DNA of 34,431 nt from positions 1 to 34,431 of the forward strand of contig JAFQPR010000016.1 of assembly GCA_017411605.1 (NCBI GenBank). The letters are read 5' to 3'. The translations under genes and the position numbers were made by a program. This DNA comes from Clostridia bacterium (GTDB taxonomy: Bacteria; Bacillota; Clostridia; Oscillospirales; CAG-272). The notes beneath the pieces were generated by a model. It did no database searches and was not told where the DNA came from. It worked only from the letters and a program-made list of their open reading frames with translations. Of the stretch, positions 7,322-24,281 are shown in pieces (within the stretch, counting starts at the first letter, position 1; each line of letters opens with the position of its first letter).

Positions 7322-7322
7322 T

Positions 7323-7544
7323 TTTTGTGTAAATTGCCGTTTTCTCACACTCGACGTAGGTAACTACGCCTTCGGTGAGAAGAACGACAATTTCCCCTAA
7401 AAATTCTCTCGCTCAAAATACAGCGCGAAGAGAGAATGAGATCAAATGTTTTGTGTAAATTGCCGTTTTCTCACACTCGACGCAGGTAACTTATGCCTTC
7501 GGTGAGAAGAACGACAATTTCCCCTAAAAATTCTCTCGCTCAAA
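7323..7544 (+). repeat. Two direct copies of a conserved-loop hairpin repeat
   Basis: This stretch between aspS and the isomerase gene holds no other feature. Copies lie at 7323-7417 and 7449-7544, nearly identical, with one extra base in the second. Each folds as a long stem (ATTGCCGTTTTCTCAC against GTGAGAAGAACGACAAT) around a loop at 7349-7374 and 7475-7501. The loop has ACTCGACGTAGGTAACT (one change in copy 2), two or three variable bases, then GCCTTCG. In copy 1 the loop also holds a small CGTAG/CTACG hairpin. The same loop recurs five times at 23591-24157 on different stems. No T-run follows, so these are not ordinary terminators. Confidence 0.85.
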
Positions 7545-7621
7545 TACCACGCAAACAAAACGAGAACGGTTATTTTGTTTTAAAGCCGTATCAAAATAAA
7601 ACAATAAAAAGGAAAAGACCA

Positions 7622-8260
7622 ATGAAAATTGCACTTATAAACGAAAACAGCCAGGCAGCTAAAAATGCCCTTATTTGCGACACTCTGAAAAAGGTAGTTG
7701 AGCCTCTTGGTCACGAGGTGCATAACTACGGTATGTATTCCGCGGATGACGCTGAGCAGCTCACCTACGTTCAGATCGGTATTCTCGCGGCAACTCTTCT
7801 CAACTCGGGCGCTTGCGATCTCGTTATTACGGGATGCGGCACAGGTGAGGGCGCAATGCTCGCGTGCAACTCCTTCCCCGGAGTTCTTTGCGGTCACGTA
7901 GTTGACCCTACCGATGCCTATCAGTTTACTCAGGTTAATAACGGTAACGCAATAGCAATGCCTTTCGCAAAAGGCTGGGGCTGGGGCTGCGAGCTCAACC
8001 TTCAGTACGTATTCGAGAAGCTCTTCGTATCCGAGTGGGGACTCGGTTACCCGAGAGAAAGAGCAGTTCCTGAGCAGAGAAACAAAAGAATACTTGACGA
8101 GGTCAAGAAGGTAACTCATACCGATATTTGCTACATTCTTGAAAATCTTGACAGAGAGCTTGTTCTCGGCGCGCTCGGAACAAAGAATTTCAAGGACCTC
8201 TTCTTCGCTAACTGCAAAGACGAAAGAATTGCAGAGTGTGTAAAGAAAATACTTGCATAA
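7622..8260 (+). CDS. RpiB/LacA/LacB-family sugar-phosphate isomerase
   Basis: A 212-residue cytoplasmic protein of the ribose-5-phosphate isomerase B / galactose-6-phosphate isomerase family. The N-terminus MKIALINENSQAAKN and the loop VITGCGTGEGAMLACN (about 69-84) match the family's active-site Cys-Gly-Thr-Gly region; the usual GTGIG is GTGEG here. It is longer than classic RpiB (about 150 residues), with an extra C-terminal segment of about 60 residues (from ERAVPEQRNK). The exact aldose/ketose phosphate is therefore uncertain. The start at 7622 has AAGGA at the right spacing. The frame stays open further upstream, but only into the hairpin repeat, so the earlier start is rejected. No sugar transporter or kinase is adjacent. 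Confidence 0.8.
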   Translation: MKIALINENSQAAKNALICDTLKKVVEPLGHEVHNYGMYSADDAEQLTYVQIGILAATLLNSGACDLVITGCGTGEGAMLACNSFPGVLCGHVVDPTDAYQFTQVNNGNAIAMPFAKGWGWGCELNLQYVFEKLFVSEWGLGYPRERAVPEQRNKRILDEVKKVTHTDICYILENLDRELVLGALGTKNFKDLFFANCKDERIAECVKKILA

Positions 8261-8271
8261 GTAAATAATAG

Positions 8272-8301
8272 TTGACAATATTGACGTTTTTTAACTTTAA
8301 T
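8272..8301 (+). promoter_or_regulatory. Possible promoter of the PAP2 gene
   Basis: TTGACA (8272-8277) and TTTAAT (8296-8301) are 18 bp apart. A TCGTAC/GTACGA inverted repeat at 8336-8355 lies between this promoter and the ribosome site and could be a leader hairpin or operator. Confidence 0.45.
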
Positions 8302-8379
8302 CACTCAAAAATTCCGTACTGTCATACAAAATTATTCGTACTGAATTCTGTACGAGCATAAAACCGAAAGGAATATTTT

Positions 8380-9354
8380 ATGCAGATACTCTACTTTTTT
8401 GAAAAGATCAGAAATCCGATCTTTGACTTTTTCTTCTCAACTATAACGTATCTCGGCGATGAGCTTGCCTTAATGCTTATAGCAATAATCCTTTTCTGGT
8501 GTGTAAATAAGCGTTCGGGATATTATATGCTCGTTTCGGGCTTCTTCGGCATCATAGTCAATCAGGTAATGAAGCTTGCTTGCAAGGTTCCGCGCCCTTG
8601 GGTAAAGGACCCGAGCTTCACGATAGTTGAATCGGCAAGGGAAGCGGCAACGGGATATTCTTTCCCGTCGGGACACACTCAGAATGCCGTTACAGTGTTT
8701 GGCTCGCTCTTACTTATAGGTAAGAAAAGATGGTTCAAAATAACCTGCGCTGTTATCGCTACCCTAGTGGGCGTGTCAAGAATGTACCTCGGCGTGCATA
8801 CGTTTTGGGACGTTATCGCGGCGGCAGGCTGCGCTGTCGTTATTCTTCTTTTGCTTGAGGACCTTTTCAAGACGGAAGAAGCGTTCCATAAGTGGATGCC
8901 TTACCTCTCCGTAGCTCTGACGCTTGGAAGTATAGGATTCTTCCTTTATGCCTGCGTGTTTACTCCCGACAGCGTAGATGCGAACGTAATTTCGGCAAGG
9001 AAGAACTCGATGACTCTTCTCGGCTGCTCTGCGGGACTTCTTCTCGTCTATCCGCTTGACAGATTTGTTATCAAGTTTGAAAACAAGTCCTCGTGGTACT
9101 GCCATGTGATAAAGGTAGTTCTCGGCTTTGTTATCGTTCTTCTCATTAAGGAGCTTGTAAAGATTCCTCTTACCGCGCTTCTCGGTCAGTACGAGCGTCC
9201 CGTTCGTTACTTCCTTATCATCGCCTTTGGCGGCGCGCTCTGGCCTTATATGTTCAGATTCATCAATAAGATTAAAATTCCCGCGCTTGACAGATTCGGC
9301 GAAAAGGTAAAAGGTTTCTTCACAAAGAAAGAGAAAAAGAGTAAAAAAGCGTAA
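8380..9354 (+). CDS. PAP2-family membrane phosphatase
   Basis: A 324-residue integral membrane protein with the three phosphatase motifs of the type 2 phosphatidic acid phosphatase family. These are Lys65-x6-Arg72-Pro73 (KLACKVPRP), PSGH (96-99) and SRxYLGVHxxxD (133-144, with His140 and Asp144 completing the site). Hydrophobic segments lie at about 27-42, 51-66, 105-115, 121-135, 143-158, 172-192 and further on; the region after 160 is an added membrane half seen in the longer members of the family. The tail is lysine-rich (KKEKKSKKA). Relatives dephosphorylate undecaprenyl pyrophosphate or lipid phosphates on the outer face; which lipid is used here is unknown. AAAGGA precedes the start, and a terminator at 9389-9431 follows. 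Confidence 0.9.
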   Translation: MQILYFFEKIRNPIFDFFFSTITYLGDELALMLIAIILFWCVNKRSGYYMLVSGFFGIIVNQVMKLACKVPRPWVKDPSFTIVESAREAATGYSFPSGHTQNAVTVFGSLLLIGKKRWFKITCAVIATLVGVSRMYLGVHTFWDVIAAAGCAVVILLLLEDLFKTEEAFHKWMPYLSVALTLGSIGFFLYACVFTPDSVDANVISARKNSMTLLGCSAGLLLVYPLDRFVIKFENKSSWYCHVIKVVLGFVIVLLIKELVKIPLTALLGQYERPVRYFLIIAFGGALWPYMFRFINKIKIPALDRFGEKVKGFFTKKEKKSKKA

Positions 9355-9388
9355 TTTCCCGTTTTTTTCAAAAACAAATCGCAATAAT

Positions 9389-9431
9389 ACAGGTAAAGAT
9401 ACCGATTTTGTGTGTCTTTGCCTGTTTTTTT
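9389..9431 (+). terminator. Terminator after the PAP2 gene
   Basis: ACAGGTAAAGA pairs with TCTTTGCCTGT (one G-U) and is followed by seven T. It separates the PAP2 gene from the housekeeping cluster. Confidence 0.85.
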
Positions 9432-9449
9432 AAAATTTTTTTAAAAGTA

Positions 9450-9478
9450 TTTACTTTTTTAAATATTTGTGGTATACT
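9450..9478 (+). promoter_or_regulatory. Promoter of the nrdR-rsgA cluster
   Basis: TTTACT (9450-9455), a 17-bp spacer and TATACT (9473-9478) lie in a very AT-rich stretch 40 bp before nrdR. No comparably strong promoter was noticed between here and 19257, so it may drive the whole cluster. Confidence 0.7.
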
Positions 9479-9518
9479 TTTATAAGTATTTAAATAAGAA
9501 AGGCAAATTTGCACAGAA

Positions 9519-10007
9519 ATGAAATGTCCCGTATGTAATTTTTCGGATTCAAGAGTTCTTGATTCGCGTCCTATAGATGACGGCACCAGTATAAAACGCC
9601 GCCGCGAGTGTCCCGGATGCGGTAAACGCTTCACAACCTATGAGGTAGTTGATACCGTTCCGATCACCGTAATTAAAAGAAGCGGCAAAAACGAGTTTTT
9701 TGATAAGCATAAGCTTATGCTCGGAATAGAGCGCGCCTGCCAAAAGCGCCCCGTTAACGCGGAGGAGATCGCGACCTCGGTCGAGCAGGATCTTCAGAAC
9801 TCGATAATCACCGAGATATCAAGTAAGGATATCGGAGAGATGGTGCTTGCCCGCTTGCGCGACGTGGACATCGTTTCGTACATAAGATTTGCCAGTGTAT
9901 ACCGCGAATTCGTTGATATAGATTCGTTTATGGCGGAGATAAAGAGCCTAAGCAAATCCAAGAAAAAGGCTCCGAAAAACAGTTCCGACGGAGGTAAAAA
10001 TGATTAA
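9519..10007 (+). CDS. nrdR: Transcriptional repressor NrdR
   Basis: A 162-residue repressor of ribonucleotide reductase genes. It senses ATP/dATP through an ATP-cone (about 49-139, starting PITVIKRSGKNEFFD) and binds DNA with an N-terminal zinc ribbon formed by Cys3, Cys6, Cys31 and Cys34. Length and domain order match the family, plus a basic tail (SKSKKKAPKNSS). The start is fixed because the zinc ribbon begins at residue 3. The ribosome site is odd: the nearest AGG is about 15 bases upstream, so initiation may be weak or use an A-rich leader. No NrdR box is visible at its own promoter, so control of this cluster by NrdR is not indicated. It overlaps yicC by 8 bp. Confidence 0.95.
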   Translation: MKCPVCNFSDSRVLDSRPIDDGTSIKRRRECPGCGKRFTTYEVVDTVPITVIKRSGKNEFFDKHKLMLGIERACQKRPVNAEEIATSVEQDLQNSIITEISSKDIGEMVLARLRDVDIVSYIRFASVYREFVDIDSFMAEIKSLSKSKKKAPKNSSDGGKND

Positions 10008-10887
10008 AAGCATGACTGCCTTTGGCAGAGCAAAGCTCGAGGGCGAGTTGCGTGATATAACAGTTGAGATGAAGAGTGTCAACTCAAGGTTTTTTGATTG
10101 CACTGTAAAGCTCCCGAGAAGCTTGTCATACCTTGAAGAGCGGGTGAAGACGCACGTTCAGAAGAACGGAATATCGAGAGGTAAGGTTGACGTCTATATA
10201 ACCGTTGATAATCACGGCTCCGACGTTGGAAGCATAACTGTGGATTTTGCCTTTGCCGAGAAGTATATAGAGGCGCTTTACGCACTTCGCGATAAATTTG
10301 CTCTCACCGACGATATCAGCGTTATGACGGTTGCGAGGAATCCCGAGGTCTTCACCTATGAGAAGCCCGAGGAGGATGCCGAGCGCGAGTGGGAGATACT
10401 CAGCTCAGTTCTCGACGAAGCGATCGCGAGCCACGCATCTATGCGAGAGGCTGAGGGAAAGAAGGCGGAGCTTGATATCACGGCGAAGGTAGAGCATATA
10501 AGAGAGCTCGCCGAAAAGGTCGAGAGGATATCCGCTGAGGATACCGTCGGCTACCGTGATAAGCTTGAGGAAAGACTTCGCAAGATCCTCGCGGATAACA
10601 GTATTGCTATTGATGAGAATAGGCTGCTTACCGAGTGCGCTCTATGGGCAGATAAGATCGCTATTGACGAGGAGCTTGTCCGTTTGAGATCTCACTTCGG
10701 CGCGTTTTATGATATACTTTCTCTCCCCGAGCCGTCGGGAAGAAAGCTCGATTTCCTTATCCAGGAGCTCAACCGTGAAACGAACACGATAGGCTCGAAG
10801 GCGAATAACGCAAGAATTGCGAGAATAGTAGTTGATATGAAGGGCGAGATTGAGAAGATACGAGAGCAAGTCCAGAATATAGAATAA
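10000..10887 (+). CDS. yicC: YicC/YloC-family endoribonuclease
   Basis: A 295-residue protein of the YicC family. The signature start [12 protein letters not shown] and [16 protein letters not shown] (about 27-42) are present, as is the C-terminal domain ending in [17 protein letters not shown] (250-266). Family members cleave RNA and take part in RNA turnover; they are usually about 290 residues, so this copy is complete. GGAGG lies inside the end of nrdR and the genes overlap by 8 bp, giving translational coupling. In Bacillus-type clusters the homologue (yloC) also heads the remA-gmk-rpoZ group, as here apart from gmk. Confidence 0.92.
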
Positions 10888-10901
10888 CGGAGGCAGATAT
10901 T

Positions 10902-11189
10902 ATGAAATTCATCAACATTGGCTTTGGAAATATGGTTTCTGCGGGACGTATAGTTGCAATAGCGAGCCCCGATTCCGCCCCTATCAAGCGTCTTGTTCAG
11001 GATGCAAAGGAAGAGAACAGGGTTATCGACGTATCCTGCGGAAGAAGAACCCGTTCCGTTATAATAACCGACTCCGAGCACGTTATTCTTTCTGCCATCC
11101 AGGCGGAAACTATAACGAACCGTCTTGCAAATGATCTTGCGAACGATCTTGCGGATGATACCGCGGATGAGGACGAGGAAGAGGAATAA
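10902..11189 (+). CDS. remA: Extracellular matrix regulator RemA (DUF370)
   Basis: A 95-residue DNA-binding protein. The core [30 protein letters not shown] and [17 protein letters not shown] covers residues 1-68 and matches RemA. RemA activates biofilm-matrix and osmoprotection genes in Bacillus by forming ring-like DNA-wrapping oligomers. This copy ends in an unusual acidic tail (about 76-95: [20 protein letters not shown]) written by short imperfect DNA repeats. GGAGG precedes the start. It lies 14 bp after yicC. Normally gmk would follow; here rpoZ follows directly. Confidence 0.93.
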
Positions 11190-11234
11190 CTCCTCGCTTT
11201 GATTTTGATTAATTATTGAAATGGAGATATAAAA

Positions 11235-11498
11235 ATGATTTATCCTACAATTGATGAACTTACACACGGCGATTTCAACCGTTACGAGCTCGTAATAGGC
11301 GTTGCAAAGTGCGCCCGCATCGTAACCGATGAGTACGTTGCAATGAGAGCTAAGGCTCAGAAGATGATCGATAACAGAGAAACGGAGAAGCCGCTTTCGG
11401 CTCTTATCGATTCCGAGTATAAGGATCAGAAGGCTGTTAAGATTGCGATAGCAAAGCTCAGCAGCGGAAGATTCAAGATGGTTCACCCCGAAGAATAA
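11235..11498 (+). CDS. rpoZ: RNA polymerase omega subunit
   Basis: An 87-residue omega subunit with the family start MIYPTIDELTHGDFNRYELV and the conserved VAKCARIVTDEY helix, where most members have AAKRARQ. The middle and C-terminus (EYKDQKAVKIAIAKLSSGRF) are helical, as expected. It helps assemble beta-prime into RNA polymerase. GGAG lies nine bases before the ATG. The gap after remA is 45 bp and holds only a weak GAGGA/TCCTC hairpin over the remA stop codon. priA follows 23 bp later. Confidence 0.88.
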   Translation: MIYPTIDELTHGDFNRYELVIGVAKCARIVTDEYVAMRAKAQKMIDNRETEKPLSALIDSEYKDQKAVKIAIAKLSSGRFKMVHPEE

Positions 11499-11521
11499 TT
11501 CACCGTATGAGGTGATACGGA

Positions 11522-13765
11522 ATGTTTTGTGAAGTATATTTATTGGATGTACCGTATCATTTGGACCGCCCGTTCGACTATGAGTGCCGAGACGGGGCGG
11601 TAACCGGAGCCTTGGTAAAGGTTCCCTTCGGAAAGGCAGATAAGCTGCGCATAGGTATCGTTACAAAAGTCAAGGATTCCTCTGACAGCGAAAAAATCAA
11701 GCCCGTGCATTCGTCACTGGATGGGCGTCTACGCCTGACCGAGGAAATGTGCGGGTTATGCTTATTTTTAAAGGAGCATACTCTCTGTACCTTTGGAGAA
11801 GCCGTAAAAAGCATACTTCCGCCGGGCGCGCTTTCCGATAAGCTTAACGAGAGCTTCAGGAAAACCGTGTCATTAGCCAAGCCGAGAGAGGAGATAGCGA
11901 CTGTTTTGACTCTCACGGGACGCGCGGGAGTGAAAAGCGAAGGTCAGAGAAGCATTCTTCGTTATCTTTTGGATATCGGGAGCGCAGATGCGGAGCTGGT
12001 GCGCGCTCTTCCGGGGGTTACGTCGGCAAATATATCCGCGCTTCGTGAGAAGGGATTGATATCCGTCACGGAGAGTGAAAATATAAGAAATCCTTACGCT
12101 GCTTATGCTAAAGAAAGGGATACTGCCGAAATCGTGCTCAGCAGAGCGCAGACCGAAGCTTATCACACTATTGAAGGACTCTATCTTGAGGATAAGGCGA
12201 GGTGCGCGCTCCTTCACGGAGTAACGGGCAGCGGAAAGACCAAAATAATATTAAAGGCGATAGACAGGTGCATTGCCGACGGAAAAAACGTCATTATGAT
12301 GGTTCCCGAGATATCGCTGACACCGCAAACCGTAAGCATATTCTGCAAGCGCTACGGCGAGCGTGTTGCCGTAATTCATTCCTCGCTCTCCGCGGGTGAG
12401 AGAATGGATGCGTGGAAAAGAATAAAAAGAGGGGACGTTGACCTGGTTATAGGTACGCGCTCGGCTGTTTTTGCGCCTCTTTCCGATATCGGTATGATAG
12501 TTATCGACGAGGAGCATGAGCATACCTATAAATCCGAGAGCGATCCGAAGTATCACGCGCGCGACGTCGCGTCGTATATATGCGGTAAAAATAATGCGCT
12601 CCTTCTGCTTGCGTCGGCAACTCCGTCGCTTGAGAGCTACTATAAGGCAACGCGCGGCACGTATACACTCGTACCGCTCAAGGAGAGATACGGCGGCGTA
12701 AAGCTTCCCGATGCCGTTATAGTGGATATGCGCGAGGAGCTGAGGCTCGGAAATACCTCGCCGCTCAGCGCAAGACTTGTAAAAGCCTTAGGCTCGGTAT
12801 ACGAGAACGAGGAGCAGGCTATACTGTTTCTTAACAGACGCGGATATAACAGTCAGGTAAGCTGCAAATCCTGCGGAGAGGTCGTGACCTGTCCGAGATG
12901 CTCGGTATCATTGACCTATCATTCAAACGCGGAGGGCGGAAAAATGCTCTGTCATCTCTGTGGATTTACCTCGGGCGTCGCTCGCGTGTGCGAGAGTTGC
13001 GGGGGTGACAATCTGTCATTTCTCGGTTACGGAACGCAGAAGGTGGAGGCGGAAATATCTAAATATCTTTCGGATATGAAGCTTATGCGAATGGATGCGG
13101 ACACAACGTCGGGAAAGCTCGCATACGATAGAATGCTCGAGGATTTCAGAGCCGCAAAGGCAGATATCTTACTCGGCACGCAGATGGTTGCCAAGGGACA
13201 CGATTTCCCGAAGGTTACGCTCGTCGGCGTTATACTTGCCGATACCTCGCTCTTTGTCAGCGACTTCAGAGCGAGCGAGAGAACCTTCTCTCTGCTCACT
13301 CAGGTAATCGGCAGAGCGGGAAGAAGCGCCAAGGACGGTATTGCCGTCATTCAGACGTACGCGCCGAAAAATGAAATAATAAGGCTCGCCTGCCTTCAGG
13401 ACTATGAGAAGTTCTACGAAGGTGAGATAGAGCTAAGACGTGAGCTGACGTACCCGCCCTTCTGCAATCTCGTGACCTTGACCGTTACGGGAGAGAACGA
13501 GAGGGATGTTATGACGGAGGCGAAGAGGGCATCCGATATGCTTCTTGAAAGAATAAAGGATGACGGAGGCAAGAATCCGTTTATCGTATTCGGCCCGTTT
13601 GAAGCGAGCGTATACAGAGTTAATGAAAAATTCAGAATGCGAATGGTAGTAAAATGCCGCCTTAATGCTTCAAGCAGAGCTATCCTTTCGTCTGTGCTTG
13701 CCGATTTTTCAAAAACCGCGCGTACTGTGACGCTTTCCGTAGATCTCGACCCGCTGACGGTTTGA
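11522..13765 (+). CDS. priA: Primosomal protein N' (PriA helicase)
   Basis: A 747-residue superfamily 2 helicase that recognises stalled forks and reloads the replisome. The N-terminal DNA-binding part (YLLDVPYHLDRPFDYE) precedes a Walker A GVTGSGKT (233-240) and a Walker B VIDEEHEH. Four CxxC pairs bind two zinc ions: Cys448/451, 457/460, 477/480 and 490/493. Helicase motifs V/VI follow (LLGTQMVAKGHDFPKVTLVG, LTQVIGRAGR). The length is normal. The start has AGGTGAT nine bases upstream, and 23 bp separate it from rpoZ. coaBC, often found between rpoZ and priA in Firmicutes, is absent. Confidence 0.96.
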   Translation: MFCEVYLLDVPYHLDRPFDYECRDGAVTGALVKVPFGKADKLRIGIVTKVKDSSDSEKIKPVHSSLDGRLRLTEEMCGLCLFLKEHTLCTFGEAVKSILPPGALSDKLNESFRKTVSLAKPREEIATVLTLTGRAGVKSEGQRSILRYLLDIGSADAELVRALPGVTSANISALREKGLISVTESENIRNPYAAYAKERDTAEIVLSRAQTEAYHTIEGLYLEDKARCALLHGVTGSGKTKIILKAIDRCIADGKNVIMMVPEISLTPQTVSIFCKRYGERVAVIHSSLSAGERMDAWKRIKRGDVDLVIGTRSAVFAPLSDIGMIVIDEEHEHTYKSESDPKYHARDVASYICGKNNALLLLASATPSLESYYKATRGTYTLVPLKERYGGVKLPDAVIVDMREELRLGNTSPLSARLVKALGSVYENEEQAILFLNRRGYNSQVSCKSCGEVVTCPRCSVSLTYHSNAEGGKMLCHLCGFTSGVARVCESCGGDNLSFLGYGTQKVEAEISKYLSDMKLMRMDADTTSGKLAYDRMLEDFRAAKADILLGTQMVAKGHDFPKVTLVGVILADTSLFVSDFRASERTFSLLTQVIGRAGRSAKDGIAVIQTYAPKNEIIRLACLQDYEKFYEGEIELRRELTYPPFCNLVTLTVTGENERDVMTEAKRASDMLLERIKDDGGKNPFIVFGPFEASVYRVNEKFRMRMVVKCRLNASSRAILSSVLADFSKTARTVTLSVDLDPLTV

Positions 13766-13812
13766 TCAAACGAGTAACTAATATAGATGCATAAAACATA
13801 AGAGGAATAAAA

Positions 13813-14271
13813 ATGGCAAAATTAAAAATAGTAAAATTCGGTGACGAAACCTTGAGAAAGGTATGCCGCCCGGTAGATGAAATCACTCCGAAAATAACAA
13901 GACTTCTCGACGATATGATAGAAACGATGAGAGCCGCGAACGGCTGCGGACTTGCCGCGCCCCAGGTAGGCGTTCTCAGACGTATAGCCGTCATTGAGGT
14001 TGAGGAGGGCGTTGTATACGAGCTTATCAACCCCAAGATAATCGCATATTCGGGCGAGCAGAAGGAAACCGAGGGCTGCCTTTCAAATCCCGGAAAATGG
14101 GGAATCACCAAGCGCCCCGCAGCGGTTACCGTAAGAGCGCTTAACAGATACGGTAAGGAATACGAGCTTAACGGAAAGGATCTTCTCGCGAGAGCGATAT
14201 GCCACGAGTGCGATCACCTCGACGGTAAGCTTTATACCGACGTGCAGATAAAAAGCGTTGAAGAGGATTAA
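13813..14271 (+). CDS. def: Peptide deformylase
   Basis: A 152-residue metalloenzyme that removes the formyl group from new polypeptides. All three motifs are present: GCGLAAPQVG, EGCLS with the metal-binding Cys, and HECDHLDG with two His ligands and the catalytic Glu. It forms a functional pair with fmt, which starts two bases after its stop codon: one adds the formyl group, the other removes it. GAGGA precedes the start. A 47-bp gap separates it from priA with no clear terminator. Confidence 0.96.
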   Translation: MAKLKIVKFGDETLRKVCRPVDEITPKITRLLDDMIETMRAANGCGLAAPQVGVLRRIAVIEVEEGVVYELINPKIIAYSGEQKETEGCLSNPGKWGITKRPAAVTVRALNRYGKEYELNGKDLLARAICHECDHLDGKLYTDVQIKSVEED

Positions 14272-14273
14272 GA

Positions 14274-15206
14274 ATGAAAATACTTTATATGGGGACTCCC
14301 GAAATATCGGCTACCGTTTTAAGTAAACTGATAGATGACGGTCACGATATCGTTGCCGTCGTGACCCGTGAGGACAAGGTGAGAGGCAGAGGCAACGTAT
14401 TGACTCCTACCGCGACCAAGGTAGTTGCTCTTGATAACGGTATACCCGTTTACGAGCCGAAAACGCTCCGTGACGAAGCCTTTTCCGAGCTGCTTCATAA
14501 TATTGATCCCGATATAATTGTCGTCGTAGCCTTCGGTAAGATACTTCCGCTCTCGGTGCTTGAATACCCGAAGCACGGATGCGTGAATCTTCACGTATCG
14601 CTTCTCCCGAAATACAGGGGCGCCGCTCCTATGCAGAGAGCCATTATGGCGGGAGATGAAGAAACGGGAGTTACCGTTATGTATATGAACGAGGGACTTG
14701 ATACGGGAGATATTATATCCGTTGAAAAATTCCCGATAGAGCCTACCGATAATTTTGAAAATATTCACGATAAGTCCGCAGTAATAGGCGGAACGTTGCT
14801 TTCAAAAACTCTCTTTGACATTGAGGCGGGACGCGCAAAACGTATACCTCAGGATGAGGCTCTTGCGACCTATGCAGCAAAGATAGAGAGGGAAGATTGT
14901 AAAATAGACTTTACAAAATCGGCAAAAGAACTCGATGCAACTATCAGAGGAGTCACTCCTATTCCGGGTGCTTTTGCATATCTTAACGGTAAAATGCTTA
15001 AAATAACCAAAGCTGCCGTCGGCAACGCTTGCGGTGCTCCGGGTGAGGTTCTTTCGACCGACGGAAACGGAGAGGGAAGCTTTACCGTGGCTTGCGGCGA
15101 GGGCTCGCTTACCGTTCTCGGCGTCATTCCCGAGGGAAAGGGAAGAATGAGCGCGGGTGACTTTGTACGTGGCAGAAAAATAGCAAAAGGAGATATACTC
15201 GGCTAA
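14274..15206 (+). CDS. fmt: Methionyl-tRNA formyltransferase
   Basis: A 310-residue enzyme that formylates initiator Met-tRNA using 10-formyl-THF. The N-terminal Rossmann domain opens MKILYMGTPEISATVL, and the catalytic stretch HVSLLPKYRGAAPMQRAI is clear, with the Asn and His of the active site in NLHVSLLP. The C-terminal OB-like tRNA-binding domain follows (from about 205). The length matches the family. Its stop codon shares a base with the next start codon (TAATG), so it is coupled to the zinc metallopeptidase. Confidence 0.96.
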   Translation: MKILYMGTPEISATVLSKLIDDGHDIVAVVTREDKVRGRGNVLTPTATKVVALDNGIPVYEPKTLRDEAFSELLHNIDPDIIVVVAFGKILPLSVLEYPKHGCVNLHVSLLPKYRGAAPMQRAIMAGDEETGVTVMYMNEGLDTGDIISVEKFPIEPTDNFENIHDKSAVIGGTLLSKTLFDIEAGRAKRIPQDEALATYAAKIEREDCKIDFTKSAKELDATIRGVTPIPGAFAYLNGKMLKITKAAVGNACGAPGEVLSTDGNGEGSFTVACGEGSLTVLGVIPEGKGRMSAGDFVRGRKIAKGDILG

Positions 15207-15922: not shown

Positions 15923-15925
15923 GCG

Positions 15926-17239: not shown

Positions 17240-18293
17240 AAAAATAGACTTGGCTTCAATGACCAAAAGCGAGCTTTGTGACTATTTTGGGTCGATAGGC
17301 GAGCCGAAATTCAGAGCGGAGCAGGTTTTCAACTGGATAAGCCGCGGAGCCTCATTTGATGAAATGACAAACCTTTCAAAGGCTCTTCGCGGTAAGCTCT
17401 CGGAAAACTGCATTGATACCTTGCCGAAGGTTGAGCAGAAGCTTGTATCAAAGCTTGACGGCACTATAAAATATTTGTTCAAGCTTTATGACGGCGCTTG
17501 CATCGAGAGTGTTTTTATGAAGTATAATCACGGAAATACTCTTTGCATTTCGAGTCAGGTAGGATGCCGTATGGGATGCAAATTCTGCGCTTCGACAATA
17601 GGCGGCAGAGTTCGCGATCTTTTGCCGTCGGAGCTGCTCGGGCAAGTCATAGCCGCCGAGAAGGATAGCGGCGAGCGCATATCCAATATCGTTATGATGG
17701 GCATTGGCGAGCCGCTGGATAACTATGACAATGTAATAAAATTTTTAAAGCTGGTGAACGCCGAGGGCGGTCTTAATATAGGCTACCGCCATATTTCGCT
17801 TTCCACCTGCGGTGTCGTTCCGGGGATACTTAAGCTTGCCGAGGAGGAATTCCCCTTGACGCTTTCTATATCTCTTCACGCCGCAAATGATGAGAAGCGC
17901 TCGGAGATAATGCCGGTCAATAATAAATGGAAGATAGCCGAGCTGCTCTCCGCTTGCGTTGCATACTATAAAAAGACGGGAAGAAGAATATCCTTCGAAT
18001 ACACTTTGATATCGGGTAAAAACGATAGCGAAGCGGATGCGGCAGAGCTTGGAAAGCTCCTGAAAGCCGCTTTCCGAGGAACGGGCGCACCGATTCACGT
18101 CAATCTTATCCGCGTGAACGAGGTTGCGGAAACAGGCTTCAAAAAGGGAAGCGAGGCTTCGATAAAGCTCTTTGCGGAAAAGCTCTCCGAGTTTGGCATA
18201 GTTGCTACTCTCAGACGCCGACTCGGCTCGGACGTAAACGCCGCTTGCGGTCAGCTTCGCCGATCGTCCTTGCAAAATAAGCCTTCAAATTGA
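17232..18293 (+). CDS. rlmN: 23S rRNA/tRNA m2A methyltransferase RlmN
   Basis: A 353-residue radical SAM enzyme that makes 2-methyladenosine at 23S A2503 and tRNA position 37. The iron-sulfur motif CRMGCKFC (Cys112, Cys116, Cys119) is typical. Cys339 near the C-terminus (NAACGQLRR) is the mechanistic cysteine. GIGEPLDNYDN and LSISLHAAND are other family hallmarks. It is coupled to rsmB by an 8-bp overlap. In Bacillus, prpC-prkC would follow; here rsgA follows after 19 bp. Confidence 0.96.
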   Translation: MTEKIDLASMTKSELCDYFGSIGEPKFRAEQVFNWISRGASFDEMTNLSKALRGKLSENCIDTLPKVEQKLVSKLDGTIKYLFKLYDGACIESVFMKYNHGNTLCISSQVGCRMGCKFCASTIGGRVRDLLPSELLGQVIAAEKDSGERISNIVMMGIGEPLDNYDNVIKFLKLVNAEGGLNIGYRHISLSTCGVVPGILKLAEEEFPLTLSISLHAANDEKRSEIMPVNNKWKIAELLSACVAYYKKTGRRISFEYTLISGKNDSEADAAELGKLLKAAFRGTGAPIHVNLIRVNEVAETGFKKGSEASIKLFAEKLSEFGIVATLRRRLGSDVNAACGQLRRSSLQNKPSN

Positions 18294-18312
18294 AAGAAAA
18301 AGAGGAAACACC

Positions 18313-19257
18313 TTGATAATTGAAAAGCTTGGAAAGGTAATAAAGGGTCTTGGCGGACTCTATAACGTAAGAGTAGAGAATGACTCGGGTGAGGTAGAAA
18401 TATATACCTGCCGCGCGAAGGGTACGCTTCATAAAAATGAAGAAAAGCTCTATATCGGCGATAACGTTCGTATAACTATAGACGATGAAACACCGGACGG
18501 TATCGTAATATCCGACGTTTGTGAAAGAAAAAATTCTCTTATCCGTCCGCCTATGGCAAATCTTGATTATCTGTTTATAGTTTTTGCCGCGAAAAAGCCG
18601 ATGCCCGTGCTTGAGGTAGTCGATAAGCTTATCGCAATAGCGATACATAACAGTATTAAGCCCGTAGTCATAGTGACAAAGCAGGACCTCGGGGATAACC
18701 TCGCCAAAGAATACGCCGAGATATACGAGCGCGCGGGAATAGACACCTTCGTTACCTCGTCCGAAAGTAAAGAGGGCGTCGCCGAACTTTCAGAATACAT
18801 AAAGAGTAATATAGCGTCGGGCGCTACGTCTGCATTTGCAGGCGCATCGGGTGTCGGAAAATCAACGCTTATGAACGCGCTTTTTCCCGAGCTCGAGCTT
18901 ATGACGTCCGAGATATCCAAGAAAATAGAACGAGGCAGGCACACGACCCGCCACGTTGAAATATTTGATATAAACGGAAAGGGTGAGAGCGCAGGCTTCC
19001 TTGCGGATACACCTGGATTCTCGCTCGTTGATTTTGCGAGATTTGATTTCTTCTCTGTCGAAGACCTTCCGTCAACCTTCCCCGATATACTTCCGTTCGC
19101 TGTCGGCTGCACGTATGCGGACTGCGCCCACGTAGGCGAGGGAATTGCCGATTGCGCCGTGGCTCGCGCCGCTGCCGAAGGTAAGATAGCGGAAACAAGA
19201 CTCGAGTCATACCGAAGTATATACCGAATACTAAAAGAGAAGAAGAATCAATATTGA
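18313..19257 (+). CDS. rsgA: Ribosome small-subunit GTPase RsgA, TTG start
   Basis: A 314-residue circularly permuted GTPase for late 30S maturation. An N-terminal OB-fold (about 1-70) precedes the G domain in the order VTKQDL (G4), GASGVGKST (G1, from 177) and DTPGF (G3). A C-terminal zinc site follows in GCTYADCAHVGEGIADC (Cys, Cys, His, Cys). The start codon is TTG at 18313: GAGG lies seven bases upstream and the OB-fold begins right after (MIIEKLGKVIKGLGGLYNV). It is the last gene of the cluster, followed by a strong terminator. The usual neighbours rpe and thiN are not present. Confidence 0.95.
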   Translation: MIIEKLGKVIKGLGGLYNVRVENDSGEVEIYTCRAKGTLHKNEEKLYIGDNVRITIDDETPDGIVISDVCERKNSLIRPPMANLDYLFIVFAAKKPMPVLEVVDKLIAIAIHNSIKPVVIVTKQDLGDNLAKEYAEIYERAGIDTFVTSSESKEGVAELSEYIKSNIASGATSAFAGASGVGKSTLMNALFPELELMTSEISKKIERGRHTTRHVEIFDINGKGESAGFLADTPGFSLVDFARFDFFSVEDLPSTFPDILPFAVGCTYADCAHVGEGIADCAVARAAAEGKIAETRLESYRSIYRILKEKKNQY

Positions 19258-19302
19258 TCTGCACGTTTAATACTAAATACAATTATTATAAACAGTAAGA
19301 AT

Positions 19303-19343
19303 GAGGCTTACCGCCGCAAAAAGCATTGGTAAGCCTCGTTTTT
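19303..19343. terminator. Strong terminator at the end of the rsgA cluster
   Basis: A perfect 10-bp stem GAGGCTTACC/GGTAAGCCTC (19303-19312 with 19328-19337) is followed by a T-run at 19339-19343. It sits between convergent rsgA and the GH43 gene and may serve both strands, though the T-run favours the plus strand. Confidence 0.9.
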
Positions 19344-19384
19344 AATATTTATTTGATTAGTAATAAATAGGAAGATTTTGAATG

Positions 19385-22255
19385 TTATTCTTCAATGATA
19401 CCTTCATTTGAAACAGTCTTCCACGTGGAAACGGTTATATACTTCGTGCCTTCGATAAAGCTGTTTTCCATTCGTGCTTCATCGTATTCCTTCATTTGAA
19501 CGAACGCAGCAGTGAATTTGAAGCTGTCAGCATCAAGACCGATAAGAGATTTATCGATAGCTATTTCGATAACGTATCCGGTATTATTATTTCTGTCAAA
19601 GTCCTCGCTCGGAGCTGAGGTGATTATCTCACCGTCGACCCTGACGTTTGCGCTTATCATTCCCGGGAGCGCTGTCGCTGTCCATTCGTTACCCTGCGCA
19701 TTGGGAACGTAAGTTCCGAGTCGCAGTTCACCGTCAGCTATCGGATTTATTCTTATAGAATAGCAGCCCTCGGCAAGATCTGTCTGATCCTTGTTGCAAA
19801 TGTAAAGCTCTACTGCGGTGCTTCTGCCCTGGGGCTTCGATGAATGATAAAACAGGTTTTTATCCTTTACCTCAAATGCAAAATAAACGTATTTGTCACC
19901 GATATAGGTATAAACGTCAGCGCTTCGCTCTCCGTATTTTTCAACGTCTACCGCCTCACCCGTTGTTTTATCAACTTCAGTTCCTTGAATATGAACGGAA
20001 GTGCATAGGTCGCGGAGCTCTTCACTGAGTGTGCCGTCAATCTTTATAAGCTCATCGCCCACACCTGGGGTGGTGTCAATCTTCATTTCGTTATAGGGAA
20101 GGAAAGGCTTTTCCTTGCTCGTTCCGAATACGCTGTAAACACCCTCGTGATTTCCGAGAAGCATAATTTCGCTGATGCGGCAGCTCTCAGCTCTGTCCGT
20201 AGGATTCACGGTTATCTTTATTGAGTTTATCTCAAGCTTTGCAAACTCCGCGATAGCAGCGCCGCCGGGACGGAGCTGATTAACCTTTGTTTCACCCTTT
20301 GCCAAAAGATACGACGTAGGAATAAGGTGATCGTCGAAATTGAACCCGATATCTTCAATATATGCTGTGCCGTAGTAGTATTTTCCTGCGATAGCTTTCC
20401 GATAAGTAACCTCGATCCTTTCGATATTATCAAAGCTGTGAACATAATCGTAGGAATTGTAAATAAGTATCGCGCGGGCCGTCACGTAGTCGTCAAATTC
20501 AAAGCTGAGAACGGTGCGCTCGGTAAACTCGAACTCTGAGCTTCCATCGTTTTCGCGCAGGGTTATAAGTCCGTCCGTAAGCGTTTTTGCATTACCGACA
20601 GAACCGTCGCTTTCGATAGTGAACGTCGCGCCGTCTATAAGGTTTTCATACTCCGAGGATGCTTTTGGCAGCGGCTGAATATCCTTCGAGGGACCGTTGG
20701 CTCTCATAATATAGTCGCCGTTGTCATTGTATACCCACCTAACCTCAGCCATGCCGAAATAACGTCTGATATAAGTAGTATCCGAGTTTATAGTATACGT
20801 ATGATAGCCGATAAAGAGCTCTCCGTCCGCCTCAAAGAAGCAATGGTGTCCCGAGGAATGAATATCCCAGAGCTCACCGGGAGTTATAACGAAGCCGCCG
20901 TCATCGGGCTGCAGCTTAGTGAATGGACCGAGAGGACTGTCACCGATAGCTTGGATAACGGAGTAGAGCTTGTCGTTAGTGTCGCCTATTGAAAGCGTGA
21001 GGTAATACTTACCGTTATCTATTCCGTCGTCGGTTTTATCCTTATAATAAAGGAAGGGACCCTCGTCAATTTTGTTAGTGGTAGTGAAGTTCAGAGCCTC
21101 GGTTTTATCTATGGTAGTATAACCGTAGGCAGAAAGAGGAGTTGTGGTAGAATAATCGGGGCTGACCCAGTCCTTCATCTTAACGCCCCATGCGTCGTTT
21201 GATTTATCCGCGGTCCTATTACGCACCATATAGAGGTATTTGTCCCCGCTTACGGGGTCAATGTAAGGCGATGCATCGATAAAGCCGCGTCTATCCTTAT
21301 AAAGATCACCGTATGAATGGTCTGCGTAAAGTCCAAGTCCCTTGAGCTTCTCGATTTCAAAGCAGGTAGTGGAGGCGTCTATCTGATCGCCGTTTGCGTT
21401 AGTACCGGAGAAATGAGTGTAAGGACCGGTTATTTCTTTACTGAAGGCTATGGCAAGGCGGAACATTCCGCTAGAGTCCTTTGCGCTGAATGCAAGAACG
21501 TAAAGCCCTTTTCCCCCTTCGTTCTCAGAGCCTAAATAGTAGCTCCAATCTGCATCCGCGTCGTATGAGATCTGAGGTGCCCATAAGTTTTCAACGCCGA
21601 AGAAATCCTCGGGCGGCGTATATATCTTTCCAAGATATCCCCAGGTCGTAAAGTTTTTCGTACGCCAAAGCTCGAAATACTTTCCGCTTGTAGTTCCCGT
21701 AACGTAAAACCAACCGCCATCAGCCTCCTCTCGGTAGTAAACCGTGGGGTCGCCGAGACCTATATCATAATCGTTAGCATAAAAAAGCTTGGAATTGTAT
21801 TTACTCGAGCCCTTATCCGAGTAATCAAAATGAGGAATATCCGTGTCCTCAAGATAAATTGATTCTTCCTCGGGGGGCTCTGTATTATCGGTGTCATCGC
21901 TGCTGTCGTTGTTATCATTATTATTGCTATTATCGTTGTTATTGTCATTGCCGTCATCATCCTCGGTGACGCCGCTATTATCTCCGCTGCCAGAGTTGCC
22001 GCTATCCGAGCTGTTTTCGCCGTCATCATCGGAAACGCCACCTGAGCCCGAGCTACCGCCGTTTTCATCGGGCTTTGGATTCTTGTTCGAAGAATCATCC
22101 TTATTATTTGCGTTATCTTTGCCGCCTTCGGTTGAAACGTCACCGTTATCACCCGAATCGGGATTTAAAGCATCGAGAAGCTTGCATCCCGTGAAAGAGA
22201 GGATAAGCGCAAACGCAAGCGCAAGTATAAAAATTATCTTGAAATGTTTTTTCAT
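19385..22255 (-). CDS. Secreted GH43-type glycoside hydrolase lipoprotein
   Basis: A 956-residue surface enzyme. A signal peptide (1-23) ends in FTGC, making Cys24 the likely lipidated residue. Residues 32-132 form a Ser/Asn/Asp/Gly-rich acidic linker. The five-bladed GH43-like domain (about 135-530) shows the base Asp169 (GLGDP), WAPQI at 225-229, Asp327 (IDASPYID), the acid Glu398 (DEGPF) and His470-471 (SGHHCFF). A beta-rich discoidin-like region (about 535-715) and a CBM9/DOMON-like C-terminal domain (about 750-956, starting KIDGTLSEELRD) follow. GH43 enzymes remove arabinose or xylose from plant polysaccharides; the exact linkage cannot be read. AGAGG precedes the start. No transporter or regulator for sugars is adjacent. 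Confidence 0.85.
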   Translation of the reverse strand: MKKHFKIIFILALAFALILSFTGCKLLDALNPDSGDNGDVSTEGGKDNANNKDDSSNKNPKPDENGGSSGSGGVSDDDGENSSDSGNSGSGDNSGVTEDDDGNDNNNDNSNNNDNNDSSDDTDNTEPPEEESIYLEDTDIPHFDYSDKGSSKYNSKLFYANDYDIGLGDPTVYYREEADGGWFYVTGTTSGKYFELWRTKNFTTWGYLGKIYTPPEDFFGVENLWAPQISYDADADWSYYLGSENEGGKGLYVLAFSAKDSSGMFRLAIAFSKEITGPYTHFSGTNANGDQIDASTTCFEIEKLKGLGLYADHSYGDLYKDRRGFIDASPYIDPVSGDKYLYMVRNRTADKSNDAWGVKMKDWVSPDYSTTTPLSAYGYTTIDKTEALNFTTTNKIDEGPFLYYKDKTDDGIDNGKYYLTLSIGDTNDKLYSVIQAIGDSPLGPFTKLQPDDGGFVITPGELWDIHSSGHHCFFEADGELFIGYHTYTINSDTTYIRRYFGMAEVRWVYNDNGDYIMRANGPSKDIQPLPKASSEYENLIDGATFTIESDGSVGNAKTLTDGLITLRENDGSSEFEFTERTVLSFEFDDYVTARAILIYNSYDYVHSFDNIERIEVTYRKAIAGKYYYGTAYIEDIGFNFDDHLIPTSYLLAKGETKVNQLRPGGAAIAEFAKLEINSIKITVNPTDRAESCRISEIMLLGNHEGVYSVFGTSKEKPFLPYNEMKIDTTPGVGDELIKIDGTLSEELRDLCTSVHIQGTEVDKTTGEAVDVEKYGERSADVYTYIGDKYVYFAFEVKDKNLFYHSSKPQGRSTAVELYICNKDQTDLAEGCYSIRINPIADGELRLGTYVPNAQGNEWTATALPGMISANVRVDGEIITSAPSEDFDRNNNTGYVIEIAIDKSLIGLDADSFKFTAAFVQMKEYDEARMENSFIEGTKYITVSTWKTVSNEGIIEE

Positions 22256-22294
22256 TGGATACCTCTATAAATTTTTAATATAGATTATAAAATA

Positions 22295-22323
22295 ATTATA
22301 ACACATTATATGGCTTTTTTCAA
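22295..22323 (-). promoter_or_regulatory. Promoter of the GH43 lipoprotein gene
   Basis: Minus-strand TTGAAA (22318-22323) and TATAAT (22295-22300) are 17 bp apart, with a TG extended -10 (TGTTATAAT). Confidence 0.8.
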
Positions 22324-22381
22324 CCTAAAAAGTTGTTTTTAATAAACGAAGAAAAAAACAAAAGAAAATTTTAAAAAACTA

Positions 22382-22410
22382 TTGACAAATGAAAAACTAT
22401 TTGATATAAT
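22382..22410 (+). promoter_or_regulatory. Promoter of rplJ-rplL
   Basis: Consensus TTGACA (22382-22387), a 17-bp spacer and TATAAT (22405-22410), as expected for a highly expressed ribosomal-protein operon. Confidence 0.9.
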
Positions 22411-22418
22411 ACCATAGG

Positions 22419-22555
22419 TATCCTAAGACAGCAGGTTCCGGTAAAAGCAAAAGCTTTCCTGCCGAGGTGACAACGATAGCATAAATATGATATTTGTTCG
22501 TCCTTTCTCGGCTTGCGTTATGCGCTTTTGTCGGAAGGGATTTTTTGTTTTAAAA
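22419..22555 (+). ncRNA. L10 leader (ribosomal-protein autoregulatory RNA)
   Basis: The leader between promoter and rplJ contains CCTAAGACAGCAGGT, later CCTGCCGAGGTGACAAC, and a distal T-rich hairpin (GCTTTTGTCGGAAGGGATT then TTTTTG). These are the recognisable parts of the L10 leader, which binds the L10/L12 complex and stops expression of its own operon. The exact ends are approximate. Confidence 0.8.
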
Positions 22556-22572
22556 TTTATGGAGGTAGAATA

Positions 22573-23097
22573 ATGCCAAGCAATAAGATTCTTGAAGAAA
22601 AGAAACAAGTCGTAGAATCACTTGCCGCAAAGCTTAAGACAGCTGTATCAGGCGTGCTTGTGAAATACGAAGGCATTAAGGTAGCTGAAGATACAGAACT
22701 TCGTAACGCTCTCCGTAAGGCAGGCGTTGAGTATACTGTTATGAAGAATACTCTTACCGGCAAGGCTTGCGATCTCGCAGGTTACGGTGATATGAAGCAG
22801 TACCTTAGTGGTATGACTGCTATTGCAGTAAGCCAGGATGATCCTATCGCTCCCGCAAAGATTATGAAGGAGTATGCAGATAAGATCGAGTGCTTTGAAA
22901 TCAAGGCAGGCTTTGTAGATGGCGGTGTAATCGATCAGGCAGGCGTTGAGTCCCTCGCAGCAACACCTTCTAAGGAAGTTCTCGTTGCAAAGATGATGGG
23001 CAGCCTTATGTCCTCTCTTTACGGATTCGCTTACGTACTTCAGGGCAAGATCGACAAGGAAAATGGCGACGGTGCCGAAGCTCCTGCAGAAGCTTAA
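22573..23097 (+). CDS. rplJ: Ribosomal protein L10
   Basis: A 174-residue protein that anchors L7/L12 dimers to the ribosomal stalk base. The N-terminal rRNA-binding domain starts MPSNKILEEKKQVVESLAAK. The C-terminal helix that holds the L12 dimers is followed by a short acidic/Ala tail (GDGAEAPAEA). The start at 22573 has GGAGGT eight bases upstream; an in-frame ATG at 22513 falls inside the L10 leader and is rejected. The gene is autoregulated through the leader and followed by rplL after 59 bp. Confidence 0.96.
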   Translation: MPSNKILEEKKQVVESLAAKLKTAVSGVLVKYEGIKVAEDTELRNALRKAGVEYTVMKNTLTGKACDLAGYGDMKQYLSGMTAIAVSQDDPIAPAKIMKEYADKIECFEIKAGFVDGGVIDQAGVESLAATPSKEVLVAKMMGSLMSSLYGFAYVLQGKIDKENGDGAEAPAEA

Positions 23098-23156
23098 TTA
23101 CTGCAAACAACTATTAATTGTATAAAATTTTGTTTAAATAATTGGAGGAATCTAAA

Positions 23157-23531
23157 ATGAATGAAAAGTCTACTCAGATCCTTGAACTTGTAAAGGGTCT
23201 TACAATTCTTGAACTCGCAGATCTCGTTAAAGCACTTGAGGAGGAATTCGGCGTATCCGCAGCTCCCGTAGCAGTTGCAGCAGCTCCCGGCGCAGCTCCC
23301 GCAGCAGCAGTTGAGGAGAAGACTGAGTTCGACGTAGTTCTTAAGTCTGCAGGCGCTAACAAGCTCGCAGTTATCAAGGTAGCTCGTGAGATCACCGGTC
23401 TTGGTCTTAAGGATGCTAAGGACCTCGTTGAGGCAGCTCCCAAGACTATCAAGGAAGCAGTTTCCAAGGAAGATGCTGATAAGATCGCTGAACAGCTTAA
23501 GGCTGCTGGCGCAGAAGTTGAAATTAAGTAA
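23157..23531 (+). CDS. rplL: Ribosomal protein L7/L12
   Basis: A 124-residue stalk protein that recruits translation GTPases. It has the N-terminal dimerisation domain (1-33), an Ala/Pro-rich hinge ([20 protein letters not shown]) and a C-terminal factor-binding domain with [20 protein letters not shown] and [14 protein letters not shown]. The start at 23157 has GGAGG nine bases upstream; an ATG five codons earlier overlaps that ribosome site and is rejected. Codon use is strongly biased, as expected for high expression. A terminator follows at 23553-23590, then the hairpin array. Confidence 0.97.
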
Positions 23532-23552
23532 TTTTCTATCTTCTAAAATTTT

Positions 23553-23590
23553 GAGTGTGGCAACCTGCGCGCCACACTCTTTCTTTTTTG
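23553..23590 (+). terminator. Terminator of rplJ-rplL
   Basis: GAGTGTGGC pairs exactly with GCCACACTC around a ten-base loop and is followed by a T-rich tract. Confidence 0.9.
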
Positions 23591-24157
23591 GCTTTCATAT
23601 TTTGGCATAATCTTTTCCTCGCTCCCACTCGACGTAGGTAACTACGCCTTCGGGTCACGATGAAAACATTCTGCTCAAAATCTGTTCGCCAAAACTCTCT
23701 ATCGGGCTTTTGTATTTCTGTATAAATCTTCGTTCGCTCCCACTCGACGTAGGTAACTTTCGCCTTCGGGTCGCGAGCAAAGATTTCTTCTAGAAATCCA
23801 TTCGCCAAAACTCTCAATCGAACTTTAGTATTTTGGTATGAACTTTCGTTCCACTCGACGTAGGTAACTTTCGGCTCTGGGTCACGATGAAAACATTCTG
23901 CTCAAAATCTGTTGCCAAAACTCTCAATCGAACTTTAGTATTTTGGTATGAACTTTCGCTCCCACTCGACGTAGGTAACTTTCGCCTTCGGGTCGCGAGC
24001 AAAGATTTCTTCTGGAAATCCATTCGCCAAAACTCTCAATCGAACTTTAGTATTTTGGTATGAACTTTCGTTCCGCTCGACGTAGGTTACTTTTGCCTTC
24101 GGGTCACGATAAAAACATTCTACTCAAAATCTGTTTTACCCAAACTCTTTATTTGGC
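23591..24157 (+). repeat. Tandem array of five conserved-loop hairpin repeats
   Basis: This gene-free stretch holds five copies whose loops lie at 23627-23652, 23742-23768, 23853-23879, 23964-23990 and 24075-24101. The spacings are 115, 111, 111 and 111 bp. Loops share ACTCGACGTAGGTAACT, two or three variable bases, then GCCTTCG with few changes. Two unit types alternate: copies 1, 3 and 5 continue GGGTCACGAT then A-rich, and copies 2 and 4 continue GGGTCGCGAGCAAAGATTTC. Each has an upstream partner for stem pairing (such as AAATCTTCGTTCGCTCCC before copy 2). Minus-strand reading frames across the array are repeat artefacts. The same loop occurs at 7323-7544. Confidence 0.85.
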
Positions 24158-24209
24158 AAATGCGCGGGGAAATGTAAATTATAGTTTTCATAAACTGCAT
24201 AAAGATAAT

Positions 24210-24272: not shown

Positions 24273-24281
24273 ATTTATTGA

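Follow-up and report, generated by a model that had tools for sequence, protein, structure and literature searches.

Palindromic repeats of bacterial genomes are usually known by their sequence and their scattered placement. The family considered here keeps a fold and not its letters. Its members are non-coding repeats about 100-130 nt long, interspersed and conserved in structure, and are represented by seven copies in a stretch of 34,431 nucleotides (the window) from Clostridia bacterium (Oscillospirales, CAG-272; contig JAFQPR010000016.1 of assembly GCA_017411605.1). REP, BIME and REPIN elements with their RAYT transposases resemble it as short palindromic repeats interspersed between genes, with many copies and a species-wise turnover (PMC2817692, PMC3116915; these and all other sources are cited here from excerpts). 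A further likeness to REP/RAYT may lie in copy number, which in the present family tends to be higher in genomes with a Y1-type transposase. However, the elements described here are longer, conserve an internal loop instead of the letters of a stem and stand in head-to-tail arrays locked behind stop codons, and among 12 loci with a Y1 gene there is none in which that gene is flanked by copies. The alternating or inverted neighbours of BIMEs and REPINs do not occur in the placement set described below, in which 10 of 10 multi-copy groups run head to tail; opposite neighbours occur at the loci L275 and L268.

In integrons the attC site stands behind a gene, and its R boxes have the form RYYYAAC ... 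GTTRRRY. The likeness to the present elements lies in an imperfect hairpin of one strand with extrahelical bases, whose structure is kept while its sequence varies and whose bottom strand is the active one (PMC2727003). An assignment to attC by R boxes was rejected, as these occur in 0 of 138 aligned copies, an absence at chance level since shuffled sequences give 0.3. The conserved part is apical here and not basal, and the host genes are ordinary core genes, not cassettes. For the L17 downstream element and the STAXI motif the folded strand or nucleic acid has likewise been argued from G-U pairs or tetraloops; the former differs in being tied to one gene, with G-U pairs and GNRA loops on the strand shown, and the latter is a pseudoknot near DNA-binding genes (PMC2864571). 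The stem-loop sequence families of bacterial genomes are also repeated intergenic sequences with a common fold, but the excerpted description (PMC2267715) does not include stop-codon anchoring or an antisense wobble bias; the comparison is one of description. Altogether, the elements resemble REP and attC in parts; apart from a possible link of copy number to Y1, the defining features of both that were tested are absent from them.

Extent of the family

In the window, the core ACTCGACGTAGGTAACT occurs seven times at up to three mismatches (five exact, one with one mismatch and one with two), always on the plus strand, against an expectation of 0.06; none of 100 shuffles reached seven. The seven repeats reported by the first-pass annotation of this DNA, made from the sequence alone, are therefore real. 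An exact search of the own genome located two further places with the element, and the exact pattern, searched over the named genome collection, returned 21 stretches, all from metagenome-assembled genomes: 19 Clostridia, from ruminant guts according to the titles, and 2 Oscillospiraceae. A covariance model built from 11 copies (R1) gave 54 matches in the own genome at E <=0.1, a figure that includes reverse-strand shadows of strong copies and equal-scoring sets. Several of these copies stand at contig ends (C16, C95, C99, C35, C96 and others of the own genome, G000), a sign that the repeat breaks assemblies.

Within the genus, 60 genomes were sampled and 52 of them gave matches, between 1 and 52 apiece with shadows counted in, which rules out a merely local duplication. 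The covariance-model search suggested along with the first description thus returned what had been expected of a genuine family, many copies with compensating stem changes, and not the solitary seven copies or non-covarying stems that were to count against it. In the order, 13 of 197 genomes have matches (own included), and four genomes of one genus in another family hold 2 to 13; no matches were obtained in the 12 listed genomes of other genera of the own family. In the class there are matches in 5 of 291 genomes (own included), the other four with one weak match each (E 1e-5 to 7e-5); these single matches, and those in the families f10 and f20 of the order, may be due to chance. The distribution is patchy and strongest in the own genus.

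Rfam covariance models gave no match at the elements (the window at gathering score, 12 relative loci at E <=1). Just under the gathering score, Gut-1 RNA (RF01706) matched L112:83-155 (E 1.1e-6) and L124:1874-1945 (E 2.8e-6); this RNA is entered as 'Human gut only' in the excerpted part of PMC2864571. Among the titles and abstract openings returned by literature searches, no account of this family was seen, although it may figure as an unnamed entry in supplementary motif lists; candidate structured RNAs have been surveyed in human microbiomes (PMC8040213, with a section on palindromic candidates) and in bacteria (PMC2864571).

Conserved fold and the strand that carries it

The inner stem varies with compensation across many loci (GACGTAG, GGCGTAG, GCAATAG, GCTGTAT and others, each with a matching partner), and the tetraloop also varies genome-wide. 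The internal loop is nearly invariant: read on the gene strand it has CTC on the 5' side of the apical hairpin and TTCG on its 3' side, and read on the antisense strand it has CGAAG and CGAG. Equally constant are the segment CGTTTTC / GAAGAACG, in which one base is bulged out, and the AT-rich helix at the base, which contains a second bulge. The first-pass annotation had spoken of a constant loop on changing stems and taken the fixed apical loop as the recognised part. The changing stems are borne out; the loop, however, is constant only among copies that were selected by it, and the genome-wide variation of inner stem and tetraloop rules it out as the conserved part, the fixed features being the internal loop and the bulges.

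Covariation was evaluated on an antisense-strand alignment (A5) of 36 copies picked for their regular architecture and on a structure of 42 pairs set by hand; RNAalifold, applied to a first mixed alignment with misaligned arms, had yielded six pairs and no covariation. In A5 both sides have changed in 33 of the 42 pairs (288 such cells), and 88.7% of the cells are paired compared to 41-48% in slid controls, a value reached by none of 500 shuffles. A smaller count on 11 copies agrees with this result. The maintenance of the fold while the letters change suggests that something in the cell reads it.

The strand concerned was approached through wobble pairs and mismatches in two larger alignments. 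From 100 loci, the gene-strand alignment took 168 matches, of which 150 were aligned and 138 kept after removal of shadows and identical copies, and the antisense-strand alignment took 141 matches, of which 133 were kept. On the gene strand there are 120 G.T and 204 A.C cells, even though the alignment was made with a gene-strand-trained model; on the antisense strand there are 386 G.T and 138 A.C cells (254 vs 132 without two wobble-rich columns), both alignments being fitted to the structure and hence leaning towards it. By wobble, 84 copies lean to the antisense strand and 19 the other way, and in one column the wobble pair is commoner than the Watson-Crick pair (73 vs 40 of 133 copies). 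Selection on a gene-strand RNA would give more G.U than A.C; the reverse is seen, which suggests that the selected fold is on the antisense strand. Fold energies, which do not lean towards the structure although the copies were found with R1, go in the same direction: by RNAfold the antisense strand is more stable in 120 of 138 copies and the gene strand in 17 (means -34.3 vs -28.1 kcal/mol), and with DNA parameters the figures are 120 and 18. The 11 loci from other families of the order all have their lower energy on the antisense strand; the difference is largest at L243 (24.6 kcal/mol) and L246 (21.2 kcal/mol) and smallest, 0.4 kcal/mol, at one locus. Stems were ranked above loops as evidence of the strand because many columns speak in them.

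Altogether, the evidence that the selected fold lies on the strand antisense to the host gene is strong but contested. The plus strand had initially been taken as the folded one; most of the stem evidence favours its complement, while the GNRA loops and three window copies side with the gene strand.

Placement behind stop codons

Placement was analysed in 40 stretches from three genomes chosen for their few contigs (G005, G023 and G031), which hold part of the copies of those genomes, together with the window. After three reverse-strand shadows were left out of 68 matches, 65 copies in 49 groups remained. Element and upstream gene share a strand in 45 of the 49 groups, so that the common orientation behind genes noticed in the window holds beyond it. 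The element starts within 12 nt of the upstream stop codon in 27 of these 45 groups, compared to 3.6 expected if it were placed evenly in the gap; at the far end of convergent gaps, taken as a control, the count is 1 of 22 vs 1.7 expected. The downstream gene may have either direction: of the 49 groups, 22 have genes of their own strand on both sides, and 20 have such a gene upstream and an opposite one downstream.

Class A comprises 28 groups whose start lies between -5 and +27 relative to the stop codon; as judged by eye, at least 10 of them are followed by a terminator-like hairpin. Class B groups come nearly all from G005, and 11 are composites in which the 5' arm behind the stop is followed by a terminator-like hairpin, an inner hairpin and the 3' arm (L154, L155, L157, L158, L163, L165, L166, L167, L172 and L177 of G005, and L185 of G023); for several of them (L155, L163, L177, L185) RNAfold gives a three-way junction. 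Between positions -4 and +22 relative to the end of the model, 4 of 65 elements have a T-run, which is at background (6.3% of windows), unlike in intrinsic terminators. As T-runs are at background and terminator-like hairpins stand separately, the earlier suggestion of a 3' transcript-end signal is unlikely; many copies stand before such a hairpin, and the array behind rplL lies beyond one of its own.

NCBIfam scans, which covered 40 of the 44 upstream proteins, revealed no clear common function of the host genes. The named ones include core enzymes and factors (IMP dehydrogenase, twice; Tsf; IF-2; triose-phosphate isomerase; PFOR; glutamate dehydrogenase; FGAM synthase; NrdD), and the others are regulators, transporters and unnamed proteins. 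Elements also occur in four species at genes with PFOR-like ends (one of these genes named by NCBIfam).

Two gene ends were followed across species in the best-scoring 30 of 57 (pgk) and 30 of 60 (aspS) genomes with a match. The pgk and tpiA genes were identified by NF010569 and TIGR00419 matches. Of 29 readable pgk-tpiA loci among the 30, the model matches in the gap of 16, a degraded remnant is visible by eye in one, and the other 12, whose gaps measure 20 to 151 nt, give no match. Several filled sites have a common short 3' junction and unlike stems, and they therefore give the appearance of a single ancient insertion that has since changed at its site. In 12 copies, each from a different one of the 16 filled loci (11 of them first copies, the other a second copy), 88.4% of cells are paired vs 68.7% in shuffles, and both sides have changed in 29 of 42 pairs vs 17.8. 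The outer stem extends into the last pgk codons, with GAC-GTC in three species and GAT-ATC in three others (by eye). The pgk-tpiA copy of G031 (L265) is a chimera with unmatched arms, as if its halves came from different versions. At the same site in G065 (L258) the tandem copies include a copy of the last pgk codons, and the duplicated unit therefore extends over the whole hairpin.

Behind aspS, among 30 orthologues (29 readable, one a partial match), the model finds the element directly 3' of the stop codon in the own genome only. In six other species the aspS TAA is followed by a long hairpin of a second type, similar in its internal loop, as seen by eye (L195, L198, L205, L208, L216 and L217; hairpins of this type were also noted at L042 and L049), and the remaining loci have other or short spacers.

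Possible roles and origins of the element

Based on the observed family, its covariation, its placement, its presence and absence at one site and its covariation in place, the explanation that we tentatively favour is that of an antisense-strand hairpin read by a protein acting in trans, kept in place by that use and spread by rare copying. The selected object would be an extended hairpin formed by one strand. It would have an AT-rich helix at its base and another helix in its middle, each with one base bulged out and the middle one also with a preferred wobble pair; above these would come the nearly invariant internal loop (CGAAG / CGAG, antisense) and a small apical hairpin with free letters. 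The folding molecule would be either the template strand itself, in single-stranded form, or an RNA antisense to the gene, and the putative protein would recognise the internal loop and the bulges. Existing copies would be retained through that use, and new ones could come from tandem duplication on the spot and, rarely, from copying to the ends of other genes, perhaps helped by a Y1-type enzyme.

Several results weigh against this explanation. No reader protein was found. Four-base loops in copies not found by the exact core are GNRA on the gene strand in 20 of 69 cases, and on the antisense strand the same loops include no GNRA and 2 UNCG; GNRA loops stabilise a gene-strand RNA, although GTAA, which makes up 14 of the 20, may be present merely by inheritance. 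Of the 7 window copies just 4 fold better on the antisense strand, as do 4 of 6 copies of the second aspS hairpin type. There is no excess of inward sigma-70-like promoters on the antisense side (7.71 vs 7.47 in shuffled sequences; 49 flanks), and in the apparent pgk-tpiA operon the antisense strand is the template strand, so that an antisense RNA would have no obvious source. Pairing of the outer stem with the last codons is weak over 63 loci, where the observed value is reached by 19 of 5000 permutations with Watson-Crick pairs and by 361 of 5000 with wobble pairs included; as a general rule it was abandoned, being clear at pgk only. As to the nucleic acid, the data are compatible with both: a wobble-favoured column is more usual for RNA, and the lack of inward promoters and the position inside gene pairs are easier to reconcile with DNA.

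A somewhat unlikely alternative is a gene-strand mRNA element, namely a 3' untranslated or intercistronic hairpin that would bind a protein, block 3' exonucleases or set a processing site. The orientation locked to the upstream gene, the start 0-12 nt behind the stop, the terminator-like hairpins that follow at least 10 of the 28 class A groups, the location within the pgk-tpiA pair and in the space separating aspS from its downstream neighbour, and the gene-strand GNRA loops would all suit such an element, and the gene-strand fold is still stable at a mean of -28.1 kcal/mol. The excess of A.C over G.T on the gene strand is the opposite of what selection on that RNA would leave; besides, the rplL array lies 3' of a terminator-like hairpin, and in class B, with such a hairpin inside the fold, a terminated message would be without the 3' arm. 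Ordinary intrinsic terminators, alike through a shared ancestor, would likewise explain why the elements are found at gene ends and on the strand of the gene, and some of them adjoin terminators, but this reading is highly improbable given the background level of T-runs (4/65), the separate terminator-like hairpins before, inside or after the element, and a conserved internal loop, bulges and basal helix that are no terminator features. The matching of the arms could also come about without function, by quasi-palindrome correction, in which template switching during replication rewrites one arm from the other; hairpin stems can both originate and persist through such switching, according to the excerpted source (PMC8794818), and the arms match the gene end at pgk. 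Such correction yields plain complementarity and would preserve neither bulges at set places nor an almost constant internal loop, nor a wobble pair commoner than Watson-Crick (73 vs 40 of 133); it has no apparent reason to tell G.T from A.C, leaves the placement behind stop codons without a cause, and is quite improbable as the explanation.

The remaining alternatives concern mobility. A REP-like single-stranded DNA element moved in trans by a Y1 transposase of the IS200/IS605 or RAYT type is unlikely, although interspersed copies, species-wise presence and absence at one site and a one-strand hairpin with extrahelical bases would all be expected of it. PF01797 (Y1) was detected in 18 of 60 genomes, in 15 over the cut-off, and these 15 have more matches (median 21 vs 9 in the other 45, p 0.011); among genomes at least 90% complete the medians are 20 with Y1 (5 genomes) and 5 without (16 genomes; p 0.005), both comparisons being without kinship correction. 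On the other hand, 14 genomes hold at least 20 matches without a Y1 gene over the cut-off, 13 of them under 90% complete, the exception being G026. The model R2 gave no match at E <=0.1 in the fetched flanks of 12 Y1 and 8 reverse transcriptase loci, and R1 gave a single match, at E 0.56, in the 12 Y1 loci. The head-to-tail groups (10/10) are unlike BIMEs. Anchoring to stop codons is, to our knowledge, not a feature of any REP. A Y1 enzyme acting in trans is nevertheless a possible mover. Reverse transcriptase, as of a group II intron, a retron or a similar element, was rejected for that part: genomes with PF00078 (9 of 60) show no gain in copy number (mean 8.9 matches vs 17.3 in the rest, p 0.11), and the 8 reverse transcriptase loci are without an element in their flanks. 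Plasmid and phage collections contained nothing similar to the first copy; in viral contigs a strict pattern was found 0 times and a looser one in two stretches, neither of which folds like the element on inspection. We give as little credence as to the REP-like element to a mobile hairpin that would target stop codons, an analogue of attC outside integrons: a folded template strand of single-stranded DNA, or an antisense RNA copied back to DNA, whose internal loop and bulges would be read by a putative enzyme that inserts it in a fixed orientation.

With clean compensatory changes, one-orientation placement behind stop codons, and filled and unfilled sites at one gene pair in related species, the family makes two questions testable: which strand is read, and whether such elements are tolerated parasites or working parts of gene ends. 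An element anchored to stop codons would also help in studying how repeats come to occupy harmless positions in compact genomes.

The seven window copies and their surroundings

The window copies are tandem duplicates within each of two places. The pair at 7.3 kb consists of neighbours with 98% identity over repeated blocks, and the five copies at 23.6-24.1 kb are regularly spaced at 111-115 nt, whence this conclusion. The segment GCCTTCG described after the core is present in six copies, and the copy at 23853 has GGCTCTG instead. The statement that the arms match each other while the stems differ between the two places applies to the good copies; those at 23825, 23935 and 24047 are weak (the gene-strand energies of the seven range from -28.0 to -17.7 kcal/mol).

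Copies 1 and 2 follow aspS, encoding an aspartate--tRNA(Asn) ligase (6035..7321, plus strand; NF003483, 420 bits, cut-off 353). The core of copy 1 (7316..7410) reads on the plus strand, but the better fold is on the minus strand (R1 104.8 bits; R2 94.7 bits on the minus strand; -25.7 kcal/mol on the gene strand and -34.7 on the antisense strand), and the aspS TAA (7319-7321) lies inside its basal arm. Copy 2 (7442..7537, minus strand; R2 71.1 bits; -22.1 gene, -24.8 antisense) is its tandem duplicate 126-127 nt further. The gene 3' of these elements has an NF006753 match and is presumably RpiB-like.

The other array is preceded by rplL, encoding the 50S ribosomal protein L7/L12 (23157..23531, plus strand; TIGR00855, 156 bits, cut-off 84.4), with an L10_leader (RF00557) upstream at 22404-22555. 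Of the two genes said to be followed by the repeats, aspS is exact and rplL looser: a terminator-like hairpin with a T-run (about 23552..23588, plus strand, by eye) stands between its stop codon and the array. Copy 3, the first of the array (23594..23687, minus strand; R1 72.9, R2 66.5 bits), and copy 4 (23709..23803, minus strand; R1 68.5, R2 51.0 bits) fold better on the antisense strand (-36.2 vs -25.9 and -28.7 vs -28.0 kcal/mol). The gene strand is better in the decayed copy 5, which carries GGCTCTG for GCCTTCG (23825..23914; R1 30.9 bits; -17.7 gene, -11.2 antisense), in the weak copy 6 (23935..24025; R1 43.3 bits; -21.2 gene, -19.7 antisense) and in the decayed copy 7 (24047..24136; R1 33.8 bits; -18.7 gene, -15.5 antisense). 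A perfect 19-nt inverted repeat detected by the repeat search 3' of the array (24207..24275) is terminator-like by eye. At the end of the window, blocks of 72-95 nt are repeated inside a long open frame (32449-34371), which we take to be in the style of leucine-rich-repeat proteins.

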